A stretch of 25,341 bases of DNA from a virus: positions 1 through 25,341 of IMG/VR virus record IMGVR_UViG_3300011114_000092; one strand, 5' to 3'. A program made the position numbers and the translations under genes. Shown one piece after another: positions 1,746-11,257 of this stretch (its first letter is position 1; the number at the start of each line of letters is the position of its first letter). The notes beneath the pieces were generated by a model. That model was not told the DNA's origin and did not search any database. It saw nothing but the letters and a program-made list of their open reading frames with translations.

Positions 1746-4162
1746 CAGTACGCCTCAAAGATAATAATCCCACCTCGACCTGCTGCGGCTGTTGCGTTGC
1801 CGTGAGCGCCACCGCCACCAGCACCAAAGCCGTTACCTTGTACGCCTGCGGTTGCCACAATTGCTAAGGCAGGGCCACCAGAACCAAAGCCAGGGCAATC
1901 CCCGCCCTTGCCGCCAAAGTTAGTTTGAACTGTTGTGCCTGAGCCGTAAGAATAGCCACCCTGTCCACCAGTGATGTTGACATCGCCGTTGGTTGCTGTG
2001 CCGCCTGCGCCGCCAGCCGTAATTGAGTTAGCGTAAGCAGTGCCTGCGCCGTTTGTGCCTGAGTTTGCCGTTATTGTGGTAATGGTCAACGTACCAGATG
2101 ACACGGTGGATGCTGTGCCAGACGCTGTGCCAACCGTGTAAACCAAGGTCTGTGCTGCGGTCATTGCAAGCCATTTGATAGCCACACCGCCACCACCGCC
2201 GCCTGTTGCCCTTTGCCCAGTCGCCGCCCCGCCGTTACCGCCTGGCCCGACCGCAGTGACCTTGACCCATTGGGTATTTGCAGGTGCGGTATAGGTTTGT
2301 GCTGTACCAGTTGTAAACGCTGACGTACCTTGCGCCAACAGCGAACTGATGGTTTTTGCCGCAGACCCATCGTAAGTCGTGCCTGCGCTTAATGAAATGC
2401 CTGTGCCTGCCGTCAGTGCGTTGGCTACTGAACCAGCAGAGCCAGCAATATTGCCACTAACAGCGCCGCCGCTAATAGCAATAGCGGTGTTCGTGACTGA
2501 GCTGACCTGCCCTTGGGCGTTGGTTGTGATGACTGGGACGGTTGCTGCTGCTCCATAAGTCCCCGCTGTTCCAACGTTAGTAATCGAAAACTGATTGGTG
2601 GTTAAAGTTAAGCCCGTGCCTGCGCTATACGTTTGAATTGCCGCAAACTGGATAAACACAATCGCCGTTGTGCCAATCGTGATTGGTAACGGTGTCTGCT
2701 GTACCCATGAGGTGTTTGCGTTTGTCGTGCCGTTAATCACCAGAATCAAGTCGCCCTGATCTACCTCATTTGTGCCTGCTCCGCTTGTGTCGTAGTCTGT
2801 TGCTCTGGTCAGGATGTATGGCAATAAAGCCGTTCCAGCCTGAGTCAGTGTATATACGCCGTTATTGGCTTGAGTTACTTCGTTCTTAATCAGTAACCGT
2901 TTGCCAACATCACCAATAACTAGCGTGTAACTGTCAATGGTCAGCGTACCAACCGCCACAGCCGTTAATGTTGCGCCAACACCGCTTGAACCATTGTTGT
3001 AAGTGTTTGCTGGTAAAGCCGCCGTGGTTGCATATTGCGCCGCAGCATGAAAGTTAACGCCAGAGGCGATGGAGTCGGCGTATGACTTGTTGACAATATC
3101 CGTGCTTGAGCTAGGTGCGGTCGTAATCGTGCCGCTAGTCAATGCCACCGATGTCAGATTGGTATTTGCCCCGCTGGTCGCAAAACCTGTGATTGCCCCG
3201 CCAAGGGTCAAACTGCCGCTGGTGGTTACCGTGCCAGTTAAAGTTAAACCGCTGACCGTGCCTGTACCGCTGACCGATGTGACCGTGCCGCCACTAGCTG
3301 GCGCTGCGGTCTCCCACAATTGTGTGCTTGAGTTGTAAACAAGAATATCGCCGTTGTTTGGTGACTGAGCCGACACGTTGTGTAGCTCGTCCATCTCATA
3401 GCCGTTTTGCACCTTAACAAACAACTTGCCATGTATAGGATGTGCGTGTTCAACCACGGCCACATAAACCAAATGAATCGGTGCGTATTGTTTGGTTGCC
3501 GTTAAGCCGCCAGGCGTTGTGCCACTCAAATACAACTGCTGACCATCGCTAAACATGGATGTATCTATGTCGGTAATCAAACCGATGATGGTCACATAGC
3601 CGTTAGAGTTGTTTGCCAAATCCTCGGTTAACAAGCCCAATGTTTGGGCAGATGTGGCATCGCTGGTCGCCAGTGCTTTGGTGACCGTAGGGTTTTGCCC
3701 AACAGCGCCGTTAATGTAGACCGCCGTGCCTTTGGTTAAGGTTGCGCCTGAGTTGTTCTTAACCAAGCAGATGACGTTTGTGGTTGCTCCTGAGACCGCC
3801 ACCGATAAGTCCACGATACTGCCGGTCTGCGCTACGCCTACACTGCCATCAGTAGATGTGATTGACGTTATTGTCTTTTCAGCAGGCAGGGTAACAAATA
3901 CGTCTTTTGTCCCGCCACTAAAGTTCACCAAAGAGCCAGCACTAGACGAATCCAGCACCGTGTCCCGAGTCAGTGTGTTTGCGTTATATGTGCCGATCCC
4001 CACTTCCCATTGGATCGTGCCTTGGATTGTGTAGTAAGTGGTGTTTCCATCACCAAGCACCGAAAACCGCTGAAAGCCCTGTACTGCGCCGCCAAGGGTT
4101 ATCGTGCCTGTGCCTGTGGAGGTGGTGGTCTCCCTGACCCTATCGGCTAAGACCAAGCTCAT
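1745..4162 (-). CDS. Large fibre-like virion protein with glycine-rich C-terminus, 805 aa
   Basis: Residues 1-100 (ADRVRETTTSTGTGTITL, then WEVGIGTY and DVFVTLPAEKT) match a module I associate with phage fibre or decoration proteins. The middle is dominated by Ser/Thr/Gly/Ala beta-rich repeats (GTVTSVSGTGTVSG, TLGGAITGFATSG) typical of trimeric fibre shafts. Residues ~637-805 are strongly glycine-rich (GPGGNGGAA, TGGGGGGVA, FGAGGGGAHGN), resembling glycine-rich fibre-tip domains. The likely job is a surface fibre, spike or adhesin that contacts the host. The gene starts with a four-base overlap with the portal stop. Its place between portal and scaffold is unusual, because fibre genes normally lie with the tail genes. 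A second fibre gene exists at 18478-19809. Assignment as a virion surface protein is fairly secure; the exact site on the virion is not. Confidence 0.82.
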   Translation of the reverse strand: MSLVLADRVRETTTSTGTGTITLGGAVQGFQRFSVLGDGNTTYYTIQGTIQWEVGIGTYNANTLTRDTVLDSSSAGSLVNFSGGTKDVFVTLPAEKTITSITSTDGSVGVAQTGSIVDLSVAVSGATTNVICLVKNNSGATLTKGTAVYINGAVGQNPTVTKALATSDATSAQTLGLLTEDLANNSNGYVTIIGLITDIDTSMFSDGQQLYLSGTTPGGLTATKQYAPIHLVYVAVVEHAHPIHGKLFVKVQNGYEMDELHNVSAQSPNNGDILVYNSSTQLWETAAPASGGTVTSVSGTGTVSGLTLTGTVTTSGSLTLGGAITGFATSGANTNLTSVALTSGTITTAPSSSTDIVNKSYADSIASGVNFHAAAQYATTAALPANTYNNGSSGVGATLTAVAVGTLTIDSYTLVIGDVGKRLLIKNEVTQANNGVYTLTQAGTALLPYILTRATDYDTSGAGTNEVDQGDLILVINGTTNANTSWVQQTPLPITIGTTAIVFIQFAAIQTYSAGTGLTLTTNQFSITNVGTAGTYGAAATVPVITTNAQGQVSSVTNTAIAISGGAVSGNIAGSAGSVANALTAGTGISLSAGTTYDGSAAKTISSLLAQGTSAFTTGTAQTYTAPANTQWVKVTAVGPGGNGGAATGQRATGGGGGGVAIKWLAMTAAQTLVYTVGTASGTASTVSSGTLTITTITANSGTNGAGTAYANSITAGGAGGTATNGDVNITGGQGGYSYGSGTTVQTNFGGKGGDCPGFGSGGPALAIVATAGVQGNGFGAGGGGAHGNATAAAGRGGIIIFEAY

Positions 4163-8916: not shown

Positions 8917-9589
8917 CGACCACCTCTTTCATCTTGATTAAGCCGTTCATGAGTCGGCTTTTGGTGTTGTACCACTGTTTGCTGAAATCACAATCCTGAT
9001 AATGATCAAATTCAGGAATTCCTAGCGTGTAATGGGCAATCTTGGCGTTCTTGTTTTCCTGCTCGCCAATCAGTACGTTCCATTCTTTCGGTAACTCACC
9101 GATAAGTGAATCGGGCAACCAACCGAATCGGTGTAAGTCTGAGCCGCTGTGATCAGCCACAAAATCCGGTGTCAGCACCTTGTTTCTTGGGTGGTCACAG
9201 TTCCACAGGATCAGGCTTGACCAGTTTTTTCTAGGGTAATCCCTGTTCGCCGCTTCCATCGGTGTGCCAATGTATTTCTTTGGGTGCTTGGTCAAGTAGT
9301 CGTGCTTAACAACTTGCACCGCTTTGGTCGGATCAAATAACTTAGCAAGGTCATCAATGTTGGACAGCATCAACATATCGCTTGCGTCCAAGAATATTGC
9401 CTTGCCTGTGAATTTGGTGAAATAAGGCACTAAAAACCGTTGATACGTAAATGCGTTAGTCCCGTCCCGCTGTGTACCATATAACGGTGTTATGGCTACC
9501 GGCTCGCTGGTGCGCTCAATCAAGCTCTGGCAAAACACATGGTAGCCAATAGCCTCTCTTGGGTCGTAGCCAGCAAATATCCTAATCAT
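8909..9589 (-). CDS. Glycosyltransferase-like protein, 226 aa
   Basis: The start MIRIFAGYDPREAIGYHVFC is characteristic of phage and bacterial glycosyltransferases of the GT-A, GT8-like kind. The segment AIFLDASDMLML (residues 64-75) carries Asp68 and Asp71 in the position of the metal- and nucleotide-sugar-binding DxD motif. A C-terminal HYTLGIPEFDHY (about residue 190) resembles the late His/Gly motif of such enzymes. The protein would transfer a sugar from an activated donor in the host cytoplasm. The acceptor is unknown: modified phage DNA, a virion protein or a host glycan are all possible. It sits between a helical protein and the TerS genes, overlapping neighbours by four and eight bases. 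The fold assignment is good; the substrate is not assigned. Confidence 0.82.
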   Translation of the reverse strand: MIRIFAGYDPREAIGYHVFCQSLIERTSEPVAITPLYGTQRDGTNAFTYQRFLVPYFTKFTGKAIFLDASDMLMLSNIDDLAKLFDPTKAVQVVKHDYLTKHPKKYIGTPMEAANRDYPRKNWSSLILWNCDHPRNKVLTPDFVADHSGSDLHRFGWLPDSLIGELPKEWNVLIGEQENKNAKIAHYTLGIPEFDHYQDCDFSKQWYNTKSRLMNGLIKMKEVVDA

Positions 9590-9942
9590 TTCAGCGTCAG
9601 CTTGTACAGGGTTGTGTCGATCAGCGCCGCAATCTCGTCCACAATGTTCTGGAGCTGGGTGTCATCTGGCAATGCCTCACGGTTTTTGTAAACGTATTCC
9701 TTGATGCTGGTCAGGTACTTAACAGGGTCTTTGGCATTGTGAAAGTTCTCAGGAAAATCCTTGATCTTTTCGTAGCACCCTGCGTAGGCCTCGGCAAACT
9801 GGTCTGCCAAGTCAACAATTTCTGTGTAGTAAGCGCCTAATGCCACATGGACTGAATAAGAGTCGGTCGCTAGGTGCATGAAATGAGTCACCGTAGAGCT
9901 GTGAAACATTGTGGAAATGAAATCGGCAACGTCTTTTTTCAT
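9586..9942 (-). CDS. Helical DUF5856-like protein, 118 aa, first gene after the late promoter
   Basis: I chose ATG at 9942 because AGGA lies just upstream (AGGATTACC before the ATG). A longer frame to 10026 would have to be read through the promoter and terminator found there. The product MKKDVADFISTMFHSS is followed by THFMHLATDSYSVHVALGAYY, a pattern I associate with DUF5856, small four-helix phage proteins that look ferritin or Dps-like. His36 and nearby acidic residues (EIVDLADQFAEAY) could form a metal-like site, but this is unproven. The function is unknown. It overlaps the glycosyltransferase start by four bases and would be the first gene of the late transcript. Confidence 0.8.
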   Translation of the reverse strand: MKKDVADFISTMFHSSTVTHFMHLATDSYSVHVALGAYYTEIVDLADQFAEAYAGCYEKIKDFPENFHNAKDPVKYLTSIKEYVYKNREALPDDTQLQNIVDEIAALIDTTLYKLTLK

Positions 9943-9951
9943 GGTAATCCT

Positions 9952-9977
9952 AAAAAAGCAGGGGTCAATGCCCCTGC
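9952..9977 (-). terminator. Intrinsic terminator in front of the late block
   Basis: On the minus strand a perfect 7-bp stem (GCAGGGG at 9977-9971 pairing with CCCCTGC at 9964-9958) with a 6-base loop is followed directly by six T residues (9957-9952). This is a classical rho-independent terminator. It lies 10 bases before the start of the 118-aa gene and about 20-25 bases after the predicted transcription start of the promoter at 9999-10026. It would therefore end both upstream early transcripts and most transcripts from that promoter, unless an antitermination factor acts. Confidence 0.85.
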
Positions 9978-9998
9978 AAAGGAGACAACTGCTGGTCA

Positions 9999-10026
9999 AT
10001 TGTAAACGCTGGAATTGGTACGTCAA
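9999..10026 (-). promoter_or_regulatory. Strong sigma70-type promoter, candidate late promoter
   Basis: On the minus strand TTGACG (10026-10021, 5/6 to consensus) and TACAAT (10004-9999, 5/6) are separated by 16 bases. Transcription would start near 9992 and immediately meet the terminator at 9977-9952. The promoter stands at the junction between the early block (ending at 10082) and the genes leading into the packaging and head operon. That arrangement resembles the lambda pR' late promoter with its downstream tR' terminator. Confidence 0.7.
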
Positions 10027-10081
10027 CAGGCCACAAGCCTAAGATATACAGTTTTTTTACGGTGGCAATGTGCGCCTTTTC

Positions 10082-10318
10082 TCACATTTCTTTGCGTTCT
10101 TCTTTGTTTAACGTGTTGCCTTGGTCGATCTCATAATGGCATTTGAGGCATAGCGCAGCCACTAAGTTGTCATCAGCCTTAATGCCCCTGCCCTTACCGC
10201 CGCCCCAGTTTGTATGCGCCGCCTGCACCATAACGTCAAACCCACAGGCTTGGCAATCAAGACCCGCCACCAGTTTGAGTAGTTTTTTTGATCTTATGTA
10301 TTGATGTTTTTGAAACAA
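10082..10318 (-). CDS. Small HNH/zinc-finger nuclease-like protein, 78 aa
   Basis: The start is TTG at 10318, chosen because GGAG lies seven bases upstream. The product has CQAC (residues 23-26) and CLKCHYE (about 57-63), the two zinc knuckles of a treble-clef HNH-type fold. Between them lie AAHTNWGGGKGRGIK and a conserved His. The arrangement resembles the small phage nuclease-like DUF1364 proteins in the nin region of lambdoid phages. It may cut recombination or packaging intermediates. The first ~62 bases overlap the preceding zinc-ribbon gene in another frame. It lies last in the early block before the late promoter. The catalytic His is present but activity is unproven. Confidence 0.75.
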   Translation of the reverse strand: MFQKHQYIRSKKLLKLVAGLDCQACGFDVMVQAAHTNWGGGKGRGIKADDNLVAALCLKCHYEIDQGNTLNKEERKEM

Positions 10319-10442
10319 TTATTGTCTCCAGTGTGGTAAATCGGTGCTCGTTAGCGCACTCCAGCCGCCGCCTGCGTGTGTTGCCGGTGCTTGTTCGGGT
10401 TTCTTTGACTATCGTCCAAGTACCACATTCTGGGCATTTCAT
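10257..10442 (-). CDS. Zinc-ribbon protein resembling the NrdR N-terminus, 61 aa
   Basis: The start MKCPECGTWTIVKETR is followed by RRRRLECANEHRFTTLETI. Together these give a CPxC...C-x-x-x-x-RFTT pattern close to the zinc ribbon of NrdR, the repressor of ribonucleotide reductase genes. NrdR's ATP-cone domain is absent, so this is a stand-alone ribbon. The last Cys knuckle is altered (CANEH instead of CxxC), with His possibly serving as ligand. It overlaps the NinB stop by four bases and the HNH gene by 62 bases. A DNA-binding regulatory role is plausible, and interference with host NrdR is speculative. Confidence 0.72.
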   Translation of the reverse strand: MKCPECGTWTIVKETRTSTGNTRRRRLECANEHRFTTLETIIVSKTSIHKIKKTTQTGGGS

Positions 10443-10717
10443 TCCTCAAGTGCTCTGAATTTAACGCCTTGCTGAGCGCCAAACATTGTGGATAACTCAA
10501 TCAACTCGTTCATCTCTGCCACCGTCATTTTGCTTGTCCTAGCTCCAATCACCACAAACCCGCCCTCGATGCCAGGCACGATCTTTTGCTTTTTTAGCCC
10601 CGCTGTCAGCACATCTTTCCATTCCTGCTTGTCTAGCTTTTGACCGTACCAGACCACCTGCTGGGCAATGTCCTCAAGATTCGCCCACATAAGACGGTTT
10701 TGCTCAAGGCTTCTCAC
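10439..10717 (-). CDS. ninB: NinB-family recombination protein, 92 aa
   Basis: The sequence RSLEQNRLMWANLEDIAQQV at the start, WKDVLTAGLKKQKIVPG in the middle and MTVAEMNELIELSTMFGA near the end are the signature blocks of the NinB (lambda Orf) family. NinB binds single-stranded DNA and helps load annealing proteins at SSB-covered DNA in the lambda recombination system, partly replacing RecFOR. Its length is shorter than that of lambda NinB but complete for the short form. It is sandwiched between a VRR-NUC-like nuclease and a zinc ribbon with four-base overlaps, so it belongs to one recombination and repair cluster. The ERF and YqaJ genes on the plus strand are likely functional partners. 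Confidence 0.88.
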   Translation of the reverse strand: MRSLEQNRLMWANLEDIAQQVVWYGQKLDKQEWKDVLTAGLKKQKIVPGIEGGFVVIGARTSKMTVAEMNELIELSTMFGAQQGVKFRALEE

Positions 10718-11001
10718 TTGATCACCCCAATCATTCTCAAAGCCGCATCAGGGCTGTCTACAACCGCCAATGCGCCGCCTTTCCAGCTTCCATGCCACCT
10801 TAGTTGGTCTTCGGTCAAAAGCCGCTTAGACGGGCTTTTAAAGCCGTCTTTAATTTCAAGTAAAAGGGTTTGGCCTTGATAGCCCACCAGCAGATCAGGT
10901 ACACCCTTGCCAACACCAGCCAAAGACTGCACCGTAGCGCCAGCCGACCGTAACGCCAATACAACCGCTTCCTGATTTGCATCAATTTTTGCCGCCCTCA
11001 T
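10714..11001 (-). CDS. VRR-NUC-like PD-(D/E)XK nuclease, 95 aa
   Basis: The core GVPDLLVG (residues 33-40, Asp36) and LLLEIKDG (46-53, Glu49 and Lys51) form the PD...ExK metal-binding active site of restriction-like nucleases, in the spacing of the VRR-NUC family. A later DQLRWHGSWKGGALAVV resembles the family's C-terminal strand-helix. Such small phage enzymes act as Holliday-junction resolvases or structure-specific nucleases. The start at 11001 has GGAG upstream and overlaps the preceding gene by 20 bases. It lies directly before ninB, which supports a recombination role. The substrate is inferred from the family. Confidence 0.85.
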   Translation of the reverse strand: MRAAKIDANQEAVVLALRSAGATVQSLAGVGKGVPDLLVGYQGQTLLLEIKDGFKSPSKRLLTEDQLRWHGSWKGGALAVVDSPDAALRMIGVIK

Positions 11002-11257
11002 TCATGCGTCTCCGTAAGTCATCAGCAGCTTTCTGCCCACGCCGCTTTACTACGTCGGATAAGATTTTCTGCCACCAGGCTAATGCTTCGGCTTTTCCCT
11101 TCTCCCGAATTTTCTTCTTGTAACGCCTGATCCAGTCCTTGGCCTCGGTCTGGCGCAAGGTCTCCTGCATCTCTGAGCGCTGTTCTAATGACAGATTGGC
11201 TAAATTCTTCACCGTCTTTGAGTCGAGAGAGGATTGAGTTTGCAACAAGTCTTTCAT
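10982..11257 (-). CDS. Hypothetical helical basic protein, 91 aa
   Basis: The product starts MKDLLQTQSSL. It is dominated by charged helices (LEQRSEMQETLRQTEAKDW, KKKIREKGKAEAL) and ends in a basic tail (RRGQKAADDLRRRMNEGG). I chose this frame over the competing one starting at 11264 because its start overlaps the methyltransferase stop by four bases (ATGA), in the style of the operon. The amino-acid pattern is also more protein-like. No family was recognised and the function is unknown. It may bind nucleic acid, since it sits between methyltransferase and nuclease. Confidence 0.7.
   Translation of the reverse strand: MKDLLQTQSSLDSKTVKNLANLSLEQRSEMQETLRQTEAKDWIRRYKKKIREKGKAEALAWWQKILSDVVKRRGQKAADDLRRRMNEGGKN

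Follow-up and report, generated by a model that had tools for sequence, protein, structure and literature searches.

A candidate terminator-gated late promoter with a conserved 10-nt motif in uncultured freshwater phages

How are the virion genes of a phage transcribed when a strong terminator stands between their apparent promoter and the first of them? In lambdoid phages, the RNA made from the late promoter pR' ends at tR' until the Q protein modifies RNA polymerase. The question arises for a 25,341-base linear virus fragment (IMGVR_UViG_3300011114_000092, hereafter the window), in which an earlier note had described a pR'/tR'-like switch ahead of the packaging genes. Here, the site is compared across relatives of the window and in other phage lineages.

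Genomic context of the site

The genes on the minus strand upstream of the site encode a replication-initiation-like protein, a methyltransferase, a small helical basic protein resembling DUF7696 (10982-11257), an endonuclease/Holliday junction resolvase-like protein (10714-11001; phrog_93 1e-9, phrog_5702 8e-5), a NinB-like recombination protein (10439-10717; PF05772 1e-38, phrog_72), a zinc-ribbon protein and an HNH protein. Downstream, on the same strand, are DUF5856, large terminase and portal genes, and the plus strand carries Erf and exonuclease genes. The site lies where a nin-like early region (NinB, resolvase, HNH) gives way to the packaging and structural genes. The first late-side gene (9586-9942, minus strand) codes for a 118-aa DUF5856 protein (PF19174 4e-22; phrog_858 3e-26, annotated in PHROG as 'starvation-inducible transcriptional regulator'). 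The zinc-ribbon protein (10257-10442, minus strand; 61 aa), encoded two genes upstream of the late border, has an NrdR-like N-terminal domain (PF22811 1.6e-8) and a weak match to Ogr/Delta (PF04606, 1.7e-5, below the cut-off), and is a possible late activator.

Most relatives are 33-35 kb long; circular closure was found for several, which share the layout of the window. The earlier estimate of ~25 kb of late genes agrees with the layout of these complete relatives, the window itself being only a 25.3-kb fragment. The named relative MW202520 has portal and coat proteins annotated as P22-type, a search for nucleotide relatives among named phages found none, and a search of Rfam gave no match.

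The HNH endonuclease gene (9965-10318, minus strand) overlaps the promoter, the motif and the terminator described below, and its normal stop (9967-9965) lies in the loop of the terminator hairpin. In the window, the listed frame (10318-10082) ends at a TGA in codon 79 (10084-10082) and runs on past it as EKAHIATVKKLYILGLWPVDVPIPAFTIDQQLSPLQGH to the TGA in the loop. Among 92 distinct relatives this early stop is seen in the window only: the 91 others have no stop there, the other HNH proteins are 105-122 aa long, and their codon 79 is TGG wherever the motif is readable. The gene of the window has therefore been truncated by mutation or contains a base in error. A phage-wide reading of TGA as Trp was ruled out by the relatives without a stop at this place and by the ATGA gene overlap at 4162/4159, which uses TGA as a stop. 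Translation ends in the hairpin loop (codon 118) in 62 of the 92 distinct relatives and before codon 118 in most of the others.

Nucleotide-level selection on the promoter and element E

On the minus strand, the promoter P1 consists of TTGACG (-35; 10021-10026, the codons for P-V-D of the HNH gene), a 16-nt spacer and TACAAT (-10; 9999-10004), which was also found by consensus scan. Six nucleotides further on comes GCAGTTGTCT (element E, 9983-9992), then CCTTT, the hairpin GCAGGGG-CATTGA-CCCCTGC with a 7-bp GC stem (9958-9977), TTTTTT (9952-9957), AGGATTACC and the ATG (9942-9940) of the first late gene, 9 nt after the end of the T6 tract. The Shine-Dalgarno-like (SD) AGGA of this gene occupies 9948-9951. 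Direct reading of the sequence thus agrees with the TTGACG-16-TACAAT at 10026-9999 and the hairpin with TTTTTT at 9977-9952 reported before. The promoter also stands where the earlier note had placed it, at the early/late border, but it is not intergenic, since P1 sits in the 3' end of the HNH gene.

P1 is not exceptional by consensus scan alone, being the second best of 23 promoter-like sites in the window, where 26.5 +/- 4.8 would be expected. Terminator-like sites are likewise near chance (27 against 23.6 +/- 5.3 expected), the terminator of this site (T) being the best listed. It is the comparison with relatives that lifts promoter and terminator above chance. Synonymous codon differences were compared with expectation in 62 relatives whose 117-codon HNH gene is intact. 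The background median score was 0.72, and three low codons in a row were seen nowhere else in the gene. Scores of 0.13, 0 and 0 were obtained for the -35 (codons 97-99) and of 0, 0 and 0 for the -10 (codons 104-106, nCG TTT ACA), where synonymous sites were invariant; together, these codons differ from codons 2-96 with p = 1e-4 (Mann-Whitney). The spacer and the codons following the -10 (codons 100-103, 107 and 108) scored 0.34, 0.84, 0.23, 0.63, 1.12 and 0.96, like the background (p = 0.62), the spacer (codons 100-103) being unconstrained but for CGTT adjoining the -10. Scores fall again in the codons of E (109-113; 0.01, 0.11, 0, 0.01 and 0; p = 5e-4). A low-diversity tail produced by recent recombination was rejected as an explanation, as such a tail is not expected to alternate between constrained and unconstrained codons. 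The pattern indicates that selection is acting at the nucleotide level, beyond coding, on the -35, the -10 and E, and the promoter followed after ~40 nt by a strong terminator, as first described, is a real one.

Element E is the most informative feature of the site and is absent from the earlier note. It is kept where the HNH stop lies upstream, as well as in distant relatives that have the terminator; in three loci with the stop moved upstream (L030, L044 and L097), the sequence after the stop retains AGTTGYC or differs from it by one base. Of 100 T-bearing loci, 96 were scored as having E upstream of T. Transcription would start at its first G (about G9992), judging from the spacing to the -10, so that E would form +1 to +10 of the predicted transcript. 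Two other roles were considered for E and rejected: it contains no nAnnnT, as a -10-like pause element would, and as the -35 of a leaderless promoter it would have a spacing of ~31 nt, which is too long.

In the terminator, stem pairing and the T tract are kept in relatives, and variants such as GAGGGTC/GACCCTC and GGGGGGT/ACCCCCC have changed in sequence with pairing retained. E plus hairpin has a folding energy of -14.4 kcal/mol. A strict stem-plus-T6 search identified T as the sole strong late-strand terminator in 19 of 21 genomes of the first set, one of which has a second, weaker candidate; no strong late-strand terminator was found in G012 and G014.

Predicted late promoter architectures in related phages

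Loci gathered through DUF5856 homologues fall into three groups. Group 1, which includes the window, has P1 with both -35 and -10, followed by E, T and an SD (SD-like match in 61/61 loci); an extended -10 after T occurs in 0/61, and the DNA separating T from the first late gene cannot accommodate a further promoter. In group 2, the -10 is present and the -35 is unconstrained, and E and T are followed by an extended -10, TGNTANNNT. Of 39 group-2 loci with T, 32 have this sequence exactly 6 nt ahead of the ATG (0.1 expected), as do 8 of 16 without T, giving 40/55 overall (e.g. L135, L200-L260); it was found at no other tested distance. Only three of the 39 loci with T have an SD. The conserved TGNTANNNT and the missing SD are the signature of a leaderless late mRNA that would start downstream of T. 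Group 3, to which G012 and G014 belong, has E and T in 0/34 loci, an SD in 34/34 and TACAAT at the end of the HNH gene.

The -35 is thus kept only where no alternative promoter exists downstream of T, which is the best argument that P1 is the late promoter in group 1. If so, late transcription must cross T, giving a layout like that of pR'/tR'. The exchange between sister groups of a terminator-crossing for a leaderless late promoter represents a natural experiment in the evolution of late control.

The best explanation of these results, and one whose chances we judge to be evenly balanced, is a terminator-gated late promoter: in the window and its close relatives, P1 would drive the late operon through T. 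Polymerase would start near G9992, which lies 15 nt ahead of the hairpin, and without a further event would make an RNA of ~41 nt (5'-GCAGUUGUCU...-hairpin-U6) and then stop. The virion genes would be reached only by polymerase crossing T, and E, at the 5' end of the RNA, would be the likely control point for this crossing or for the fate of the short RNA. We infer the start site, termination, the control of read-through and the role of E from sequence comparison, and late mRNA could also come from early transcripts begun upstream. If the proposal is right, access to the virion genes in a large uncultured group of freshwater phages is controlled by a promoter-terminator cassette without a recognised Q, and the 10-nt motif E marks where the missing partner should be sought.

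Some relatives carry inserts of 110-440 nt between the terminator or the HNH stop and the SD (L023, L071, L089, L130, L138, L017, L036, L063, L283, L285, L288, L313 and L326), a type of insert that the window does not have. Their frame is CAACACGCATGGGGATTG, a variable cassette, CAGTCCCCAGCCGTGTTGGT, a second variable cassette and ACCAACAAC-TTAAAGGA, with complementary arms, and two tandem units are present in L011, L130 and L138. Those scanned gave no Rfam match and no tRNA was found. The inserts look like structured leader RNAs with exchangeable cassettes.

Occurrence of E and T in other phage lineages

IMG/VR was scanned with the pattern CAGTTGCC-N2-22-GGGGG-N3-10-CCCCC-T6, with reversed E as the single control, and 99 stretches were found against 0 for the control. 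Other lambdoid-like phages also have E-T at the early/late border, with other genes following it (L404, L413, L442, L473 and L517); so does MW202462 (locus L615), which comes from Manatee Spring, again with a different next gene. In three further lineages, E-T stands directly before a convergent gene (X1, L411-L490; X2, L405, L462 and L466; X3, L403, L412, L452 and L478). The X1 members L632, L633, L637 and L640 have kept E and a terminator with changed surroundings and a changed promoter-like site, and further X1 relatives have neither E nor the terminator. Each of 18 records, all picked for having E-T, contains it in one place (18/18). Its occurrence in varied settings across lineages argues that E-T is a portable unit independent of late genes. 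Gating of late genes cannot be its sole conserved function, since group 2 has a promoter after T and E-T also precedes convergent genes.

E-T may thus be an RNA element in its own right. A broader proposal, which we advance tentatively and would not call probable, is that E-T (CAGTTGYC, 3-22 nt, GC hairpin, T run) represents an undescribed portable phage RNA element, present once per genome where counted, at the early/late border of P22-like freshwater phages and at operon ends of several unrelated lineages. It would act via a shared host factor or host RNA and would have been built into the late promoter in the window's group. E-T as an element of the host itself was rejected: among 300 genomes from the order to which one MAG belongs (host order uncertain) it was found in one, not exceeding the reversed control. 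A motif that accompanies terminators across lineages is a short lead, amenable to testing, to what may be an unknown phage RNA or termination-control element.

Alternative functions of the site

The distribution of E-T bears directly on a rather doubtful alternative, that P1-E-T is mainly a small-RNA gene whose ~41-nt product acts in trans on a host RNA or protein, with E as its unpaired 5' segment and the late genes served by leaky read-through. E is the most conserved part of the site and is predicted to be unpaired in the window (0.94), which such an RNA would explain, as it would the convergent genes of unrelated phages, where no same-strand gene follows E-T directly. The 99 stretches against none for reversed E, the single place per record in the 18 chosen records and the precedent of StxS (PMC7873438) point the same way. 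Against this, sites complementary to E are not enriched near gene starts in phage genomes, E is predicted to be paired in lineage X1, and part of X1 has E-T without a recognisable promoter. Presentation of E in a hairpin loop was rejected, because the stems enclosing it are no better than chance (30 loci), which also counts against a small RNA.

Alternatively, the hairpin could be a plain terminator of the early operon, with P1 a minor promoter and late genes transcribed by partial read-through from early promoters. This would suit the position of T after the last early gene (HNH), its standing as the sole strong late-strand terminator and the arrangement in group 2, where T divides the early operon from the late promoter. 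We regard it as improbable, because it leaves unexplained both the nucleotide-level selection on the -35, -10 and E in the HNH gene and the coupling of E to T in nearly all T-bearing loci. Translation-coupled attenuation, in which ribosomes finishing HNH keep T open on early transcripts and untranslated P1 RNA terminates, draws on the HNH stop in the hairpin loop in 62/92 distinct relatives and is very improbable in view of the earlier stops in most others, the premature TGA in the window and the group 2 HNH genes that end ahead of the hairpin.

Search for Q and other protein partners

A Pfam profile search for the three Q families found none of them in the relatives searched. PF06530 and PF03589 were absent from 22 and 23 records, respectively, with working controls, the window being a 25.3-kb fragment, whereas for PF06323, which gave no match either, the control was silent too, so that this result is uninformative.

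Among right-arm genes, the best follower of T is that for the DUF7696-like protein, present in 25 of 27 genomes with T against 2 of 14 without it (41 genomes), a contrast that comes mostly from one clade. The protein goes with the terminator in the window's phage group and is dispensable for E-T elsewhere: it is absent from the E-T phages of X1-X3, from MW202462 and from G027/G028. No solved structure matches its predicted fold. It was rejected as the antiterminator, given the largely single-clade contrast and the existence of E-T elsewhere without it, and is at most a weak candidate.

Comparison with known late-control systems

StxS is a small RNA formed from the pR'-tR' transcript of Stx phages, and demonstrates that a leader of this kind can serve both as a regulatory RNA and as part of a switch (PMC7873438). 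The short RNA predicted in the window would likewise run from a late promoter to its terminator, and its genomic position is the same (PMC7873438). RNase E processes StxS, which is bound by Hfq and has known targets, whereas the predicted RNA would be only ~41 nt long.

The AlpA system of Pseudomonas aeruginosa also has a promoter followed by an intrinsic terminator, which is overcome there by a dedicated factor. AlpA is unrelated to Q in sequence (PMC7969949). Its binding element, GGGACG, lies between the -35 and -10, and the system also requires a -10-like pause (PMC9371919); in contrast, neither a GGGACG-type element nor a -10-like pause is seen in the window. The terminators begin 54 nt (PalpB) and 26 nt (PA0807) after the start, compared with 15 nt after the predicted start in the window. 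The leaderless extended -10 promoters, with TGN-TATAAT-like sequences 6 nt before the ATG and no SD, are a feature of the group-2 relatives and not of the window.

Two sequences are required in Q as well as AlpA systems, a binding element located between the -35 and -10 and a -10-like initial transcribed sequence (PMC6606751, PMC9371919). No nAnnnT hexamer was read in the initial transcribed region of the window, TGACCAGCAGTTGTCTCCTTTG, and no constrained 6-bp element was seen in the P1 spacer. Of the proposed pR'/tR'-like switch, the layout and position hold. Assignment to the Q systems is not supported, as neither a Q family nor a pause element was found and no conserved Q-type site is evident; antitermination can reasonably be inferred for the window's group.

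The lambdoid pR'-tR' regions of lambda, 21 and 82 lack nothing of this arrangement: a near-consensus sigma-70 promoter after a nin-type region, a terminator tens of nucleotides further on and the late operon. Unlike them, the window has no Q found, no -10-like pause and no evident conserved site between the -35 and -10; instead, its promoter is embedded in an HNH gene, and a conserved element, E, lies between the start and the hairpin.
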